From assembly GCF_003555545.1 (NCBI RefSeq), contig NZ_CP032157.1, positions 624,546-688,545 of the forward strand: a stretch of 64,000 nt of DNA, written 5' to 3'. The notes under the pieces were generated by a model that did not search any database, was not told the DNA's origin, and saw only the letters and a program-made list of their open reading frames with translations. Below are positions 29,430-33,997 of this stretch, piece by piece (within the stretch, counting starts at the first letter, position 1; every line of letters starts with the position of its first letter). This stretch comes from Paraflavitalea soli. Its GTDB lineage: Bacteria; Bacteroidota; Bacteroidia; Chitinophagales; Chitinophagaceae. The translations under genes and the position numbers were made by a program.

Positions 29430-31394
29430 ATGAAACAAAGGCTGTTGGCAGTTTGCTTATGGTGGCTGTGGGCGTATCAGGCTCCGGCACAAACGCCTTA
29501 TATTGACAGCCTTACCCAGGAATTGAAAGGATCATTGGCCGATACTTCCAGGGCCTATAGTATGATGCGGCTGGGCATTGCCCTGGAAACCGTCGATACA
29601 GCGTTGTGTTCAAGAACCTACAATGAGGGAATACAATTTGCCAGCTCCAAAGGGTTGGATTACCAGGCAGCTCTCCTCTACTTCAACAGGGCTTACCTGT
29701 ACATTGCAAGAGCTTCCTACCAGGAGGCCGAAAAAACACTCGATTCGGCGCTTGTCTTCCTGGGAAGGTCCAGTCATGTGAACACTTTATTTAAGACAGC
29801 AAGTGTATATGCTACGCTATCTGAGGTGAAGCGGCACCAAGGCGATTACCAGCAAGCAGTAGCCTGGCAAAACAAAGCCATTGAGTTATATATCAAGCTG
29901 GATAAACCGGCCAGTCTGCTTACTGCCTATATCAACCAGGCCTCAGTCTTCAAGGACCTGAATGAATTTGTGAAAGAGGAGGAATATGGCCGGAAGGCTT
30001 TGGCCATTGCCCGCTCAACGGGCAGGCGGCAGGACTTGTTCAGTGCCCATTTCACCATTGCGCTGGCCCTCACCATGCAGAACCAATACCAAAAGGCAGA
30101 CGATCATATTGATTCATCACGCAAATATTATGATGAGAACTACGCACACCAGGCCGTGATCAGTTATCACCTGGTGGCCGGGCTGATTGATATGAACCTG
30201 AACAGGCTGGCATCAGCCAATGAACACTTTACCAAAACAGGCCAGATCGCAGAGCAGGCCAAAGATGTGTTTGGTAATATCCAGGCGAGGTTGCAGCTGG
30301 CCCGGGTACTTACCCTGCAGAAAAAGTTCAGGGAAGGAGAAGCCTTGTTGCTGGCCATACAAAAGGAAAGGGCCGATCTTCAAATGAACCACCAGGTGAT
30401 CCTCCTGGATTACCTGGCAAGGTTATATGAAGAATGGGGTGATGCTAAGAAGGCGCTTCCCTATTATAAAAAGTATAAGGAGGTGTCTGATTCCATGTCC
30501 AGCATTCAAAATAAACAGTATGCGAGCAACCTGGAAGTGCAATACCAGACAGCGCAAAAAGAAGCCACCATACAGCAGCTGGAAGCCGATAAAAAGTTTC
30601 AGCAATTGAACATCCGCCAGAAAAATACCTTAAATTATATCCTGATCGGCGGCGCTGTGGGTTTGTTGGTCATATCATTGCTGACCTATAGGAATTACAG
30701 GCACAAACAAAAGTTACAGCAACAACGGATCAATGAGCTGGAAACAGAGCAGCAGCTCACAGCGGCAGAAGCGGTGTTGAAAGGAGAGGAGCAGGAACGT
30801 ACCCGCCTGGCAAAGGATCTGCACGATGGATTGGGCGGTATGCTGTCGGGCATCAAATATTCCCTGCGTACAGTGAAGGAAAATCTGGTCATGACGCCTG
30901 CCAATGCGCTGGCATTTGAACGCAGCATGGATATGCTGGATAGTTCTATCCAGGAGATGCGACGGGTGGCGCACAATATGATGCCGGAAACCCTGGTGAA
31001 GTTTGGCCTTGATGCAGCGCTGAAAGACTTTTGTAATGACATTACGCAATCAAACGCCTTGCAGGTTACGTATCAGTCTATCGGTATGAACGGCCCGGAT
31101 ATTTCCCAAACAACTACGATCACCATTTACCGTATTGTGCAGGAACTGATCAATAACGCGATCAAACATGCCGCTGCACGCACATCGATCGTACAGATCA
31201 GCAGAACGGGAGATAAAGTATCTTTAACGGTAGAAGATGATGGGGGTGGATTTGATCCGGCCATACTCCAGGGGACCAAAGGCCTGGGCTGGAGTAATAT
31301 TCAAAACCGGGTAGGCTATCTGAAAGGAAATACAGATATACGGAGTGAACCGGGAAAAGGTACTTCTGTTCTTATTGAATTTGAAACAGCATGA
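29430..31394 (+). CDS. TPR-containing sensor histidine kinase (HisKA_3 type)
   Basis: 654 residues from ATG 29430, preceded by AAGGAG-like sequence. The earlier in-frame region to 29259 does not look like protein. Signal peptide ending APAQ, tetratricopeptide repeats at about 40-360, a membrane helix at about 401-420 (LNYILIGGAVGLLVISLLTY), a short coiled coil, then the HisKA_3 phospho-acceptor KDLHDGLGG with His465 and an HATPase (ELINNAIKHA, VEDDGGGFDP, GLGWSNIQNRVGYL). The signal is probably sensed in the periplasm. Its last four bases (ATGA) overlap the response regulator gene, its cognate partner. Confidence 0.92.
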   Translation: MKQRLLAVCLWWLWAYQAPAQTPYIDSLTQELKGSLADTSRAYSMMRLGIALETVDTALCSRTYNEGIQFASSKGLDYQAALLYFNRAYLYIARASYQEAEKTLDSALVFLGRSSHVNTLFKTASVYATLSEVKRHQGDYQQAVAWQNKAIELYIKLDKPASLLTAYINQASVFKDLNEFVKEEEYGRKALAIARSTGRRQDLFSAHFTIALALTMQNQYQKADDHIDSSRKYYDENYAHQAVISYHLVAGLIDMNLNRLASANEHFTKTGQIAEQAKDVFGNIQARLQLARVLTLQKKFREGEALLLAIQKERADLQMNHQVILLDYLARLYEEWGDAKKALPYYKKYKEVSDSMSSIQNKQYASNLEVQYQTAQKEATIQQLEADKKFQQLNIRQKNTLNYILIGGAVGLLVISLLTYRNYRHKQKLQQQRINELETEQQLTAAEAVLKGEEQERTRLAKDLHDGLGGMLSGIKYSLRTVKENLVMTPANALAFERSMDMLDSSIQEMRRVAHNMMPETLVKFGLDAALKDFCNDITQSNALQVTYQSIGMNGPDISQTTTITIYRIVQELINNAIKHAAARTSIVQISRTGDKVSLTVEDDGGGFDPAILQGTKGLGWSNIQNRVGYLKGNTDIRSEPGKGTSVLIEFETA

Positions 31395-32005
31395 ATGTAA
31401 CGGTATTTATAGTAGATGATCATTACATGGTGATCGAGGGAATACGTTCTTTGTTGCAGCATGACAAGCGTATGGAATTGAGCGGTCATGCTACCAGCAC
31501 GGTTTCCTGTATGGCGTTTTTGCAGGGATGTCAACCCGATGTGATCCTGATGGATATTAACCTCGGAGATGAAAGCGGCATTGATCTTTGTAAAATAGTG
31601 AAGGATAAATATCCTTCCATCAATATTATTGGGTTGAGCACTTTCAATCAGCAGACCTTTATTCAAAAGATGCTGGACAATGGGGCATCGGGTTATGTAT
31701 TGAAAAATGCTACGCAGGAGGAACTGATCGAAGCGATCCTCACCGTGATCAAGGGAAAGACCTATCTGAGTCTGGAAGCATCACGGGTGCTGAGTAAAAA
31801 AACGTCGACGAATATTGTTCTTACCCGCCGGGAAAAGGAGGTGCTGGAACTGATTGCCGACGGTCTCACCAATAATGAGATTGCCCAAAAGCTTTTCGTG
31901 AGTGTATCCACCGTCGATACCCACCGGCGCAACCTGCTGGAGAAATTTGAAGCCCGTAATATCGCCTCCCTTGTTAAAATTGCCATGCAGCAACAGCTGA
32001 TATAA
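31391..32005 (+). CDS. NarL/LuxR-type response regulator
   Basis: 204 residues. The N-terminal receiver has acidic Asp9-Asp10, phospho-acceptor Asp55 in VILMDINLGD, and switch residues in IIGLSTF and VLKNA. The C-terminal LuxR-type helix-turn-helix is TRREKEVLELIADGLTNNEI followed by VSVSTVDTHRRNLLEKF. It overlaps the kinase gene by four bases, so the two are translated together. Targets are unknown. A repeat array starts right after its stop codon. Confidence 0.93.
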   Translation: MNVTVFIVDDHYMVIEGIRSLLQHDKRMELSGHATSTVSCMAFLQGCQPDVILMDINLGDESGIDLCKIVKDKYPSINIIGLSTFNQQTFIQKMLDNGASGYVLKNATQEELIEAILTVIKGKTYLSLEASRVLSKKTSTNIVLTRREKEVLELIADGLTNNEIAQKLFVSVSTVDTHRRNLLEKFEARNIASLVKIAMQQQLI

Positions 32006-32013
32006 ACTCATTA

Positions 32014-32432
32014 TCATTTCGAGCGCAGTGAAGCGGAGTGAGAAATCTTTTGCCTCGAAAGCAGATTCCTCCCTGCGGTCGGAATGACAATAAAGAGAGG
32101 AGCATCACTCTTATTCTGTCATTTCGAACGGAGCGAAGCGTAGTGAGAAATCTTTTGTCTCGAAAGCAGATTCCTCCCTGCGGTCGGAATGACAACAAAA
32201 GAGGAGCATCACTCTTATTCTGTCATTTCGAACGTAGCGAAGCGTAGTGAGAAATCTTTTGCCTCGAAAGCAGATTCCTCCCTGCGGTCGGAATGACAAT
32301 AAAGAGAGGAGCATCACTCTTATTCTGTCATTTCGAACGGAGAGAAGCGTAGTGAGAAATCTTTTGTCTCGAAAGCAGATTCCTCCCTGCGGTCGGAATG
32401 ACAATAAAGAGAGGAGCATCACTCTTATTCTG
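32014..32432. repeat. Direct repeat array, four units of about 105 bases
   Basis: Units start at 32014, 32119, 32223 and 32328, each opening with TCATTTCGA, and a partial fifth starts at 32433. Each unit has a palindromic part (TCATTTCGAACG... to ...CGGTCGGAATGACA, about 75 bases with imperfect inverted ends) and a 30-base link that holds its own AATAAAGAG/CTCTTATT dyad. Copies differ at few positions (C/T, A/G). It starts nine bases after the response regulator stop and gives open frames on both strands because 105 is a multiple of 3. Confidence 0.85.
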
Positions 32433-32940
32433 TCATTTCGAACGCAGCGAAGCGGAGTGAGAAATCTGCTGTCGAAGCATACGTCTTAGAATGGTTATCA
32501 TTTCTTAATAAATACCCCTATGTGAAATAGGTTCCCTGGGCGGCCATTGGTCAAATAAGTCTTTATTCAGGAATTTCCATTCCGGGTTTGTTATATTTAT
32601 CAAGATTGTTTTCTTGTGACGGCTCCAGCGTTTAAGTTCTTTTTCCCTGGCAATAGCAGCCTGGATCATACCAAAAGATTCATAGTAAAGAAGAAAGTGA
32701 CAAAAATATTTTCCTGCGAACGAAGTGGAGTTGCCGCGGTTTAGATAGTGTTCAATGATGCGTTGTTCAAGATTATTGGTGACTCCAATATAAAGTGTGG
32801 TCTTGTTGGAGTTGGTGAGGATATAAACATAATAGGTATGCGTGGTCTTCATTGGAAGTTTATCCAGTATACGAAAAATCTGAGAAGTTAGATTGAAGGC
32901 CAATGCTTCGATAGCGGATTTCTCCCTGCGGTCGAAATGA
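32433..32940. mobile_element. Putative repeat-flanked GIY-YIG element
   Basis: Left arm 32433-32479 and right arm 32904-32940 are inverted copies of the same repeat family as the adjacent array. Their inner ends GAAATCTGCTGTCGAAGCA and TGCTTCGATAGCGGATTTC pair at 17 of 19 positions, and the outer ends TCATTTCGAACGCAG and CTGCGGTCGAAATGA pair at 14 of 15. The arms differ by an 11-base insertion. Between them lies only one gene, a GIY-YIG nuclease. Mobility is inferred from this layout. Confidence 0.5.
32505..32852 (-). CDS. GIY-YIG endonuclease, small stand-alone type
   Basis: 115 residues from ATG 32852. The frame stays open further upstream, but that part is encoded by degenerate repeats and is not protein-like. 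The GIY-YIG core is complete: YYVYILTNSNKTTLYIGVTN supplies the two tyrosine motifs (YVY and YIG), followed by Arg in NLEQRIIEHY, then the AAIAREKELKRWSR helix carrying Glu of the catalytic site, and NPEWKFLNKD. No DNA-binding domain is fused. It is a metal-dependent DNA nuclease of the UPF0213/YhbQ-like kind. It is bracketed by inverted repeats and flanked by a repeat array, so it may process or move those repeats. Confidence 0.88.
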   Translation of the reverse strand: MKTTHTYYVYILTNSNKTTLYIGVTNNLEQRIIEHYLNRGNSTSFAGKYFCHFLLYYESFGMIQAAIAREKELKRWSRHKKTILINITNPEWKFLNKDLFDQWPPREPISHRGIY

Positions 32941-33205
32941 CAAAGGGAGATCGAAATAAAAAGAGGAGAGACCGAAATAAAAAAGAGGAGAGACCGAAAT
33001 GATAAATAGGAAAGGCCGAAATGACAAAGAAAGAAAGTCGAATGGCAAAGAAAGTTGAATGGTAAAAAGGAAGTTGAATGATAAAATGGGAATCTTATAA
33101 CAAGCGAGTAGAGATGTGTAAGGTGCAATTGTAAACCATAGCATACTAAAAAGCGCATCCGGAGAAGGACACGCTTTTGTTATGTAAGATAATATTGATC
33201 AACAT
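32853..33205. other. Intergenic region with degenerate short repeats
   Basis: 353 bases upstream of the GIY-YIG gene. It contains the right arm of the repeat element (32904-32940). From about 32941 to 33085 there are about seven degenerate units of 18-23 bases with cores such as GAGACCGAAATAAAAA, GGCCGAAATGACAAAG and AAGTTGAATGATAAAA, apparently grown from the arm's end. No gene was seen. Confidence 0.6.
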
Positions 33206-33997
33206 TTACTGACTGATCGCCCTATCCAAATGCACATAACCGCCATCTACATGGATGAGTTGACCGGTTGTGTGGCTGGAGGCAGAAGACAACAGAAAAG
33301 CAGTGGCATTGCCAAGTTCTTCCGCTGTGGTCATACGGTTTTCTAATGGTATCTTGGCTACAATAGAAGCCAGTTTTTCCTCTGAATTCGGCAGGCTGCT
33401 GATCCACCTTTCATACAAGGGCGTCCAGCACTCTGCCACTACAATAGCATTCACACGGATGCCATAGGGCAGGAGCTCTACCGCCCATTCACGGGTGAGG
33501 GCATTGCGGCCTCCATTGGAAGCTGCATAAGCCGACGTGCCACCCTGGCCCGTTTCAGCTGTCTTGGAACTGATGTTCACAATAGCCCCTTTCGACTTCT
33601 TCAGTTCGGGTAAGGCATATTGCGCTACCAGGTAATAATGCACCAGGTTCTTGTGCAGCGAAGCAATAAATGCCTCATAACTGCCATTCTCCAAACCTAC
33701 GCCATCATTTACACCGGCATTGTTGACCAGTCCGTCAATGCGGCCATATTGTTTGATCACTGCTTTTACTGCCTGCTCGCAGGCTTCCGGTTTAGTAAGC
33801 TCGGCCACTACCTGACCCGCCTGCTGGCCGGCAGCTTTGATCTCTGCTACTGTTTTCAGGTTGTCCTCTTCATTGCGCCCCATGATCACCGGGATAGCGC
33901 CTTCTGCTGCCAGTACTTTCGAGATGCCTTCTCCAATACCTTTCGCGCCGCCTGTTACAATAATGACCTTGTCTTTTAATTGAAGATCCATCTGCAA
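33206..33997 (-). CDS. SDR oxidoreductase, probable L-fucose dehydrogenase
   Basis: 263 residues (ATG 33997 or 33991). The Rossmann motif TGGAKGIG is at 15-22, NNAG at 92-95, and Ser143/144 and Tyr157 are present. The catalytic Lys of YxxxK is Asn161 (YAASN), read directly from AAT. The ALTREWAVELLPYGIRVNAI stretch and C-terminal VDGGYVHLDR match the L-fucose dehydrogenase-like SDR group, which oxidises L-fucose to L-fuconolactone with NAD(P). Context strongly favours fucose over other sugars: a FucP, a mutarotase and fucosidases are in the same locus. It is the last gene of the operon, five bases after the hydrolase gene. Confidence 0.78.
   Translation of the reverse strand: MQMDLQLKDKVIIVTGGAKGIGEGISKVLAAEGAIPVIMGRNEEDNLKTVAEIKAAGQQAGQVVAELTKPEACEQAVKAVIKQYGRIDGLVNNAGVNDGVGLENGSYEAFIASLHKNLVHYYLVAQYALPELKKSKGAIVNISSKTAETGQGGTSAYAASNGGRNALTREWAVELLPYGIRVNAIVVAECWTPLYERWISSLPNSEEKLASIVAKIPLENRMTTAEELGNATAFLLSSASSHTTGQLIHVDGGYVHLDRAISQ

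Follow-up and report, generated by a model that had tools for sequence, protein, structure and literature searches.

A single-domain GIY-YIG nuclease gene of Paraflavitalea soli is enclosed by inverted copies of a TGTC-tagged palindrome, and the link between its protein lineage and such REPs is not a coincidence and is established as far as sequence reaches. We consider it probable (roughly 0.6) that positions 32431-32942 of the window represent a gene-bearing, autonomous TGTC/CGTC REP element, and that the gene-less dimers next to it and elsewhere in the genome are its non-autonomous form, spread by the nuclease. The window is the whole 64,000-nt stretch analyzed here, positions 624546-688545 of the 8.44-Mb single-contig host genome.

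Gene, arms and array in the window

Repeats were scored with R1, a covariance model built from nine half-REPs of other loci; none came from the host genome or from the 80 loci surveyed below, and four came from genomes in that survey that carry the gene (G023, G100, G092 and G059). The following features were identified.

32012-32089, no strand: REP dimer 1, gene-less, left half with the lowest score (R1 32012-32050 plus, 32061-32089 minus; repeats)
32117-32194, no strand: REP dimer 2, gene-less (R1 32117-32155 plus, 32166-32194 minus)
32221-32298, no strand: REP dimer 3, gene-less (R1 32221-32259 plus, 32270-32298 minus)
32326-32403, no strand: REP dimer 4, gene-less (R1 32326-32364 plus, 32375-32403 minus)
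32431-32479, plus strand: left half-REP, TGTC-tagged, of the unit that bears the gene and is fifth in register (R1 match 32431-32469)
32505-32852, minus strand: single-domain GIY-YIG nuclease gene, 115 aa (PF01541, E = 1.9e-14, Pfam)
32904-32942, minus strand: right TGTC-tagged half-REP, inverted, tag outward (R1 match 32914-32942, minus; inverted pairs)
32943-33085, minus strand: decaying tandem REP heads, CGAAATGACA-like, in steps of ~20 nt (direct repeats)

A preliminary description of this DNA had reported a 115-residue GIY-YIG gene enclosed by inverted arms, and our analysis bears this out: the protein matches PF01541, and the arms form two inverted pairs, 32431-32450/32923-32942 (20 nt, 90% complementary) and 32453-32487/32896-32930 (35 nt, 80% complementary). 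The arms had been placed at 32433-32479 and 32904-32940; they are real and are best drawn a few bases wider, at 32431-32479 and 32904-32942. The four-unit array of the same repeat family was recovered as four inverted dimers at 32012-32403, left of the gene, with eight R1 matches. A point absent from the earlier account is that TGTCATTTCG starts at 32117, 32221, 32326 and 32431, with a step of 104-105 nt between dimer starts; since this step is constant through 32431, the pair around the gene continues the register as its fifth unit. Analysis of the 64-kb window with R1 (E ≤ 1) revealed exactly ten matches, none of them hand-picked and all within 32012-32942, eight in the array and two enclosing the gene.

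In the window every half-unit opens with a TGTC tag; behind it comes a short stem (ATTTC...GAAAT) with GA at its borders. The R1 stem had 82.2% of cells paired compared with 67.1% after shuffling and a covariation of 0.489 compared with 0.207, with 0/500 shuffles as high; stems with slid partners scored worse, and the count of further pair types was not above that of the shuffles. Among 18 half-units compared, 17 carried CGTC or TGTC and one AGTC; as these were picked by eye near genes, GTC itself is partly built into the count. Fourteen of the 18 stems started with AT, and a complementary AT partner was present in 12 of those 14. As an illustration with the same eye-picked half-units, which comprise 16 different stems, at least five of six pairs were formed in 16/18 versus a mean of 2.0 after partner swapping. 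An 8-9 bp stem, a 4-5 nt loop and a CCA tail describe the arms of loci L147, L152 and L140; the window and other Bacteroidota forms differ, with a 5-bp stem and a long GA-rich loop. DNA folding compared with shuffles was unremarkable for the window half-units alone (z = 0.15 and -0.79), with z = -1.76 for the window dimer and -0.05 for a half-unit of L117. Truncated REP heads (tag plus ~10-15 nt), one to three in tandem at ~20-30-nt steps, lie just outside full REPs in several genomes (L201, L209, L212, L143:2689-2746 and window 32943-33085).

Terminal inverted repeats, a feature of IS elements and MITEs, are present around the gene. In agreement with the preliminary description, no target-site duplication could be shown at the window locus by comparison with congeners, because the 5' neighbour gene has only diverged matches there, located elsewhere. 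All four congeners carry a close match to the 3' neighbour gene, and an exact empty site corresponding to the window element was not found in the genus. An Rfam search of 31300-33800 (E ≤ 1) gave no match, and a group I or II intron or other known structured RNA was rejected on this basis. The gene is intergenic and therefore not an intein.

The pattern TGTCATTTCGA occurs 96 times in the host genome compared with 9 times for its reversed form. The cluster with the largest number of copies lies in the window (five in 0.8 kb), followed by four in 0.12 kb at 5,071,603-5,071,723. Counts in the congeners (reversed pattern in brackets) were 119 (8) in G003, 24 (6) in G001, 1 (6) in G002 and 4 (3) in G004. 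Only the host and G003 carry a REP-type GIY-YIG protein among these five genomes, so that counts of 96 and 119 with the gene stand against 24, 1 and 4 without it; the window protein and the G003 protein (L020) are sisters. Many sequences similar to the 49-nt left arm, mostly 85-98% identical, occur in the host genome and G003, and 40 REP copies from three genomes of the genus were inspected. TTGCCGA/CTGCCGA heptamer runs follow many of the dispersed host-genome REPs (L175, L182, L189, L193 and others). A further G003 locus (L016) has a GIY-YIG domain in a long open frame, enclosed by 26-nt arms at 100% (TGTCACCCTGAGCTTGTCGAAGGGTC).

These genus counts also bear on whether a Y1 (RAYT-like) or other transposase moves the REPs in trans, with the GIY-YIG link as a by-product. 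The host genome does encode two Y1_Tnp genes; however, both lie more than 29 kb from the nearest TGTCATTTCGA, all five genus genomes have 2-3 Y1_Tnp genes while TGTCATTTCGA ranges from 1 to 119, and published CGTC REPs are described as unlinked to transposase genes in selected passages of PMC3733652. We regard this reading as very improbable, and RAYT/Y1 was rejected as the REP partner on the grounds of distance and lack of tracking in the genus.

Flanking repeats, protein lineage and REP copy number

To compare flanks, 80 loci with single-domain GIY-YIG genes of the host's family were taken among the high-scoring rows listed, one per tandem cluster; rows near the left contig end, rows in long open frames and some of the remaining rows were left out. 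Each locus was scored by the best ungapped repeat shared by the two 400-bp flanks of its gene, with a threshold of ≥18. This analysis revealed direct repeats in 62/80 loci, inverted repeats in 10/80 and either kind in 67/80, compared with 10/480, 2/480 and 10/480 for same-size control placements in the same loci. A control with ParE toxin genes from the family survey, which are accessory and of similar size (L238 excluded), gave 2/29, 0/29 and 2/29. A strict tagged-hairpin detector was positive on any side in 20/80 GIY-YIG loci compared with 48/1600 placements and 3/29 ParE genes, and on both sides in 10/80 compared with 2/1600 and 0/29. A loose version of the detector was unspecific (positive in 366/1600 placements and 13/29 ParE genes) and was kept for an orientation tally only, in which both tags of the nearest hairpins point outward at 14 of 26 two-sided loci and inward at 4, the other 8 being mixed. 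It had been proposed that the link would be coincidental if arms occurred near such genes at background rate; they do not, as control placements and ParE genes mostly lack them.

By chance, or at a hotspot, small genes might simply land in repeat-rich spacers, and an R1 REP was indeed found within 400 bp of 3/29 ParE genes at the bit score used for the clade comparison below. Against this stand the flanking-repeat and two-sided strict-REP counts given above and the restriction of the REPs to one protein branch. Chance placement was rejected on the placement controls, the ParE controls and this single branch, and we give it next to no weight.

In a tree of 106 proteins all 39 REP-flanked sequences and nine unclassified ones formed one 48-row group with zero tRNA-flanked members and a support of 100/97, in an alignment of 99 columns that leaves many forks open and the bootstrap unsettled. 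The REP label changed 7 times on this tree compared with 31.9 times in shuffles (0/500 as low); the tree omits L016, L145 and L097, the tRNA label of L004 was assigned by hand, and L119, where a tRNA and a tagged hairpin occur together, was counted as tRNA. Of the 121 R1 matches in the 80 loci, 118 fell in the 26 loci of the REP clade, and an R1 match within 400 bp of the gene (E ≤ 0.05) was present in 11/26 REP-clade loci versus 1/47 of the tRNA class. A strong flanking repeat was found in 20 of the 26 (all except L058, L061, L070, L092, L112 and L129) and a strict tagged hairpin in 19 (all except L061, L062, L064, L069, L077, L105 and L112). Fourteen further loci, those new among the 30 clade loci of the genome survey, had REPs by eye in 14/14 cases, on the 5' side only in L270 and L272, and 9/14 passed the repeat threshold of 18. 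Taken together, the proposed association between GIY-YIG gene and palindrome is strongly supported, with homologues of the same branch mostly carrying arms elsewhere.

The expectation that GIY-YIG homologues in general carry arms held for the REP branch and failed for most single-domain genes of the family survey, 48/80 of which adjoin tRNA genes. A tRNA gene lay within 500 bp in these 48/80 loci compared with 13/1600 placements and 0/29 ParE genes. We therefore rejected one mode common to all GIY-YIG genes, the tRNA-linked and REP-linked branches being distinct. The host genome's other seven single-domain GIY-YIG genes likewise adjoin tRNA or pseudo-tRNA genes and lack the window repeat. The tRNA-linked lineages largely follow the isotype of their neighbour, with 16 changes over 48 rows and 10 amino acids compared with a mean of 34.0 (minimum 30) after shuffling, four loci with mixed tRNAs being excluded; vertical descent of the locus could also produce this match. 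All 59/59 tRNA matches were on the strand of the GIY-YIG gene, and the tRNA was upstream of the gene in 44/51 loci. Genes beside a tRNA include L001, L004, L005 and L008 of the host genome and 48/80 of L057-L136, mostly just 3' of the tRNA. Pseudo-tRNA arrays with short palindromes replacing or beside the anticodon arm (TCCCGATAGCAATCGGGA, TCCCCACAGCAGTGTGGGGA) were seen at L008:880-1380, L004:580-2200 and L001:1866-1908, among them five pseudo-tRNA-Ser copies of 101 bp and four 393-bp units that combine a pseudo-tRNA-Asp with a GIY-YIG gene.

A broader reading would cover both branches. Standalone GIY-YIG genes might be unrecognised minimal mobile elements, each lineage wedded to one short structured DNA, either CGTC/TGTC hairpins, whose spread across phyla would be driven by the nuclease, or single tRNA genes by isotype; they would move by cutting and repair copying, with no transposase, intron or intein. 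We advance this tentatively, at somewhat less than even odds.

Copy number was examined with a profile of 28 REP-clade proteins over 117 genomes, which separated with a clean gap (≥69 bits versus ≤62.2) and assigned the clade gene to 44/117. At least one R1 match was present in 37/44 genomes with the gene versus 20/73 without it, at least 10 matches in 23/44 versus 6/73, and at least 30 in 13/44 versus 1/73. The mean was 18.0 with the gene and 2.5 without it (Mann-Whitney P = 2.7e-10, uncorrected for kinship), per-genome counts being bounded by the 64 candidates scored in each. Zero R1 matches were found in seven REP-clade genomes; R1 misses the long-loop form, with 0 matches in G003 despite 119 copies of TGTCATTTCGA. 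The exception in the other direction was G113, with 58 R1 matches and no clade gene, and five other gene-less genomes had 10-16. G113 is a candidate for recent loss of the GIY-YIG gene. The simpler pattern YGTCATYYYGA depended modestly on the gene (median log2 ratio 0.08 versus -0.56, P = 5e-4); an excess of ≥30 was seen in 13 genomes, 9 of them with the clade, and other REP stems escape this pattern.

Loci in other phyla and in close relatives

A tblastn search of 72,556 plasmid records with the window protein (103 aa) gave 32 matching records, 16 of which were inspected. The same query had no match in 50,697 phage records (E = 1e-5), and a phage origin was rejected on this basis. A tagged hairpin lay within 400 bp of the gene in 15/16 plasmid loci and on both sides in 11/16, and these loci span three phyla. 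Enclosing inverted arms were found in Novosphingobium and Sphingobium (31 nt, 100%), Shinella PSBB067 (28 nt, 100%), Neorhizobium (34 nt, 97%) and Aeromonas (28 nt, 93%). Hymenobacter has arms of 35 nt (94%). In Planktothrix (Cyanobacteriota) TGTCATTCTGAG dimers flank the gene on both sides; Spirosoma has a REP dimer on one side and a half-unit on the other, and four Pontibacter loci have an intact hairpin directly behind the gene. REPs occur on a single side of the gene in Photobacterium (L144) and R. tumorigenes (L150), and in Sinorhizobium K101 (L145) repeats of another kind flank the gene. The REP-gene layout thus recurs in alpha- and gammaproteobacteria, Cytophagales and one cyanobacterium. 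Carriers of CGTC REPs named in the parts of PMC3733652 considered here, namely A. lipoferum, N. aromaticivorans, S. meliloti and Neisseria, are among the plasmid matches. As the same gene lineage sits in REPs of Bacteroidota, Proteobacteria and one cyanobacterium, it is the leading candidate for the missing REP-spreading enzyme.

The comparison of relatives for presence and absence, which the preliminary description had called for, showed the REP-gene block in some strains and not in others of both Sphingobium and Azospirillum. In Azospirillum lipoferum 4B a block of REP dimer, gene and REP dimer separates sufB from sufC, the gene lying between the two dimers and not within one. The sufB-sufC region of A. 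ramasamyi, A. oryzae, Azospirillum sp. B510 and TSH58 has no gene block, with matched pieces 97.8, 96.3, 95.4 and 91.1% identical to A. lipoferum, respectively. The Shinella PSBB067 gene also lies between sufB and sufC, as judged from its translated flanks and match H96, and its flanks are too diverged for a comparison of junctions. A REP-flanked gene between sufB and sufC was seen in two alphaproteobacteria of different orders (L147:2857-3475 and L151:2942-3368). On Sphingobium plasmids, the two aligned strains with the gene carry the REP-gene-REP block in the interval from fnrL to a regulator; at the same spot TomTYG64 has a single REP palindrome and three others have neither, in a comparison that leaves out five further records with full-length matches (H34-H38) and one with a shorter match (H41). 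The alignments for Sphingobium and Azospirillum revealed no target-site duplication, their junctions having diverged. A dN/dS of 0.06-0.18 shows the five clade gene pairs tested to be under purifying selection by this measure.

The main rival is that a free-standing homing gene parasitises existing REPs as landing sites while gene-less REPs multiply by other means. The bare REP of Sphingobium TYG64 at the spot where its relatives have REP-gene-REP would be expected of such a parasite, REP-rich gene-less genomes exist (G113), and the sister branch adjoins tRNA genes, which are surely not its creation. However, REP number depends strongly on the gene, tandem gene-less arrays adjoin the gene in several loci, and REP counts in the genus do not follow Y1_Tnp, the only further mobility gene tested. 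We consider homing parasitism unlikely and prefer the autonomous gene-bearing element with its gene-less derivatives.

The nuclease and its relation to known systems

In an alignment of 28 sequences Y10, Y21, G23, H35 and E70 of the protein were invariant and R31 nearly so. We take Y10, Y21 and H35 to be catalytic residues of the GIY-YIG domain; the catalytic Arg and Glu are named in a passage of Dunin-Horkawicz et al. 2006 (PMC1564403). Pfam assigned only PF01541 to the window protein, with no second domain and no PF01797. An AlphaFold2 model based on six sequences reached a pLDDT of 78 and a pTM of 0.72. Its sole Foldseek match below 0.001 was UPF0213 1zg2 (E = 3.9e-4), with Slx1 entries next, and a profile search retrieved 1zg2 (E = 1.6e-12) and 1ywl (E = 3.2e-9). 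Slx1-Slx4 is described in titles of structure entries as processing branched DNA, so a hairpin or cruciform would be a suitable substrate for the window protein. PADLOC was run on two clade proteins, and an anti-phage system was rejected, the window's hit being a weak partial match to UzuA (E = 0.0016).

The same relatives would fit a role in the host or in repair: an Slx1-like enzyme would trim or resolve REP cruciforms and sit in REPs to regulate or stabilise them. By structure and by profile, standalone UPF0213 proteins come closest, followed by Slx1, and Slx1 acts in rDNA copy-number maintenance according to part of PMC1564403. Patchy presence (44/117 genomes) and presence or absence at single loci resemble a mobile gene instead, and we judge a host function improbable.

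For the autonomous element we infer that the nuclease may cut and copy REPs and so may itself move or amplify the palindromes, as had been suggested. A small Slx1-like nuclease would recognise the tagged hairpin, as a cruciform or a single-strand hairpin, and would cut it. The break would be repaired by recombination through REPs, repair could copy the gene into another REP in a homing-like manner, and extra gene-less dimers and tandem arrays would be left behind.

The window repeats resemble the CGTC/TGTC-tagged REP superfamily. In selected passages of Di Nocera et al. 2013 (PMC3733652) these CGTC-tagged REPs are reported from five phyla including Bacteroidetes, with Neisseria dRS3 and two Rickettsia RPE repeats among them; the tag is often TGTC, complementary AT comes first in the stems almost invariably, and a dedicated transposase is apparently lacking. 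Shared with that description are the outer CGTC/TGTC tag, the AT-first stem, the dimers and the dispersal in several phyla, and the Azospirillum and Aeromonas arms have the published 8-bp stem, 4-nt loop and CCA tail. The Bacteroidota form differs in its 5-bp stem, flanking GA..GA and longer loops; by these features it is not clearly among the four published CGTC families as the text passages describe them. In contrast to the published trait of having no mobility gene or enzyme in the parts considered, a GIY-YIG gene is embedded here, beside strict REPs in 19/26 clade loci and 15/16 plasmid loci. The GIY-YIG protein is the best candidate enzyme for CGTC/TGTC REPs, and with a concrete candidate of ~100 residues the question of the missing CGTC-REP enzyme becomes directly testable.

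Standalone prokaryotic GIY-YIG proteins are filed with Slx1 in PMC1564403, of which we considered selected passages; these raise the question of parasitic behaviour among GIY-YIG members beyond the homing and restriction enzymes, and the paper does not use the word palindrome. Neither GIY nor CGTC occurs in Nunvar et al. 2013 (PMC3686654), and no GIY-YIG/REP link was found in titles and selected passages of the open-access literature, subscription papers and preprints lying outside this scope. If the proposed role is true, it would bear on the 2006 question of GIY-YIG molecular parasites raised in those passages of PMC1564403, and a second type of enzyme would be living with REPs beside the RAYTs.

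The standalone Slx1-type proteins of UPF0213 (1zg2, 1ywl) share sequence and fold with the window protein, but they were deposited as hypothetical proteins, and no printed link to REPs was found for them. With RAYT/REP systems (REPtron, REPIN) the element shares a small nuclease gene between REPs of the kind scattered through the same genome, and paired inverted REPs as the non-autonomous form; unlike those systems it has a GIY-YIG enzyme in place of HUH/Y1 and a CGTC/TGTC tag in place of GTAG. With GIY-YIG homing endonucleases (I-TevI type and free-standing HEGs) it shares the catalytic superfamily and a selfish-looking gene inside its presumed target, whereas here no intron and no second Pfam domain were found, the site is a multicopy repeat, and the nearest solved relatives of the protein are of the standalone UPF0213/Slx1 type. 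The system would work like a RAYT/REP pair or a homing endonuclease and is a member of neither family as defined.
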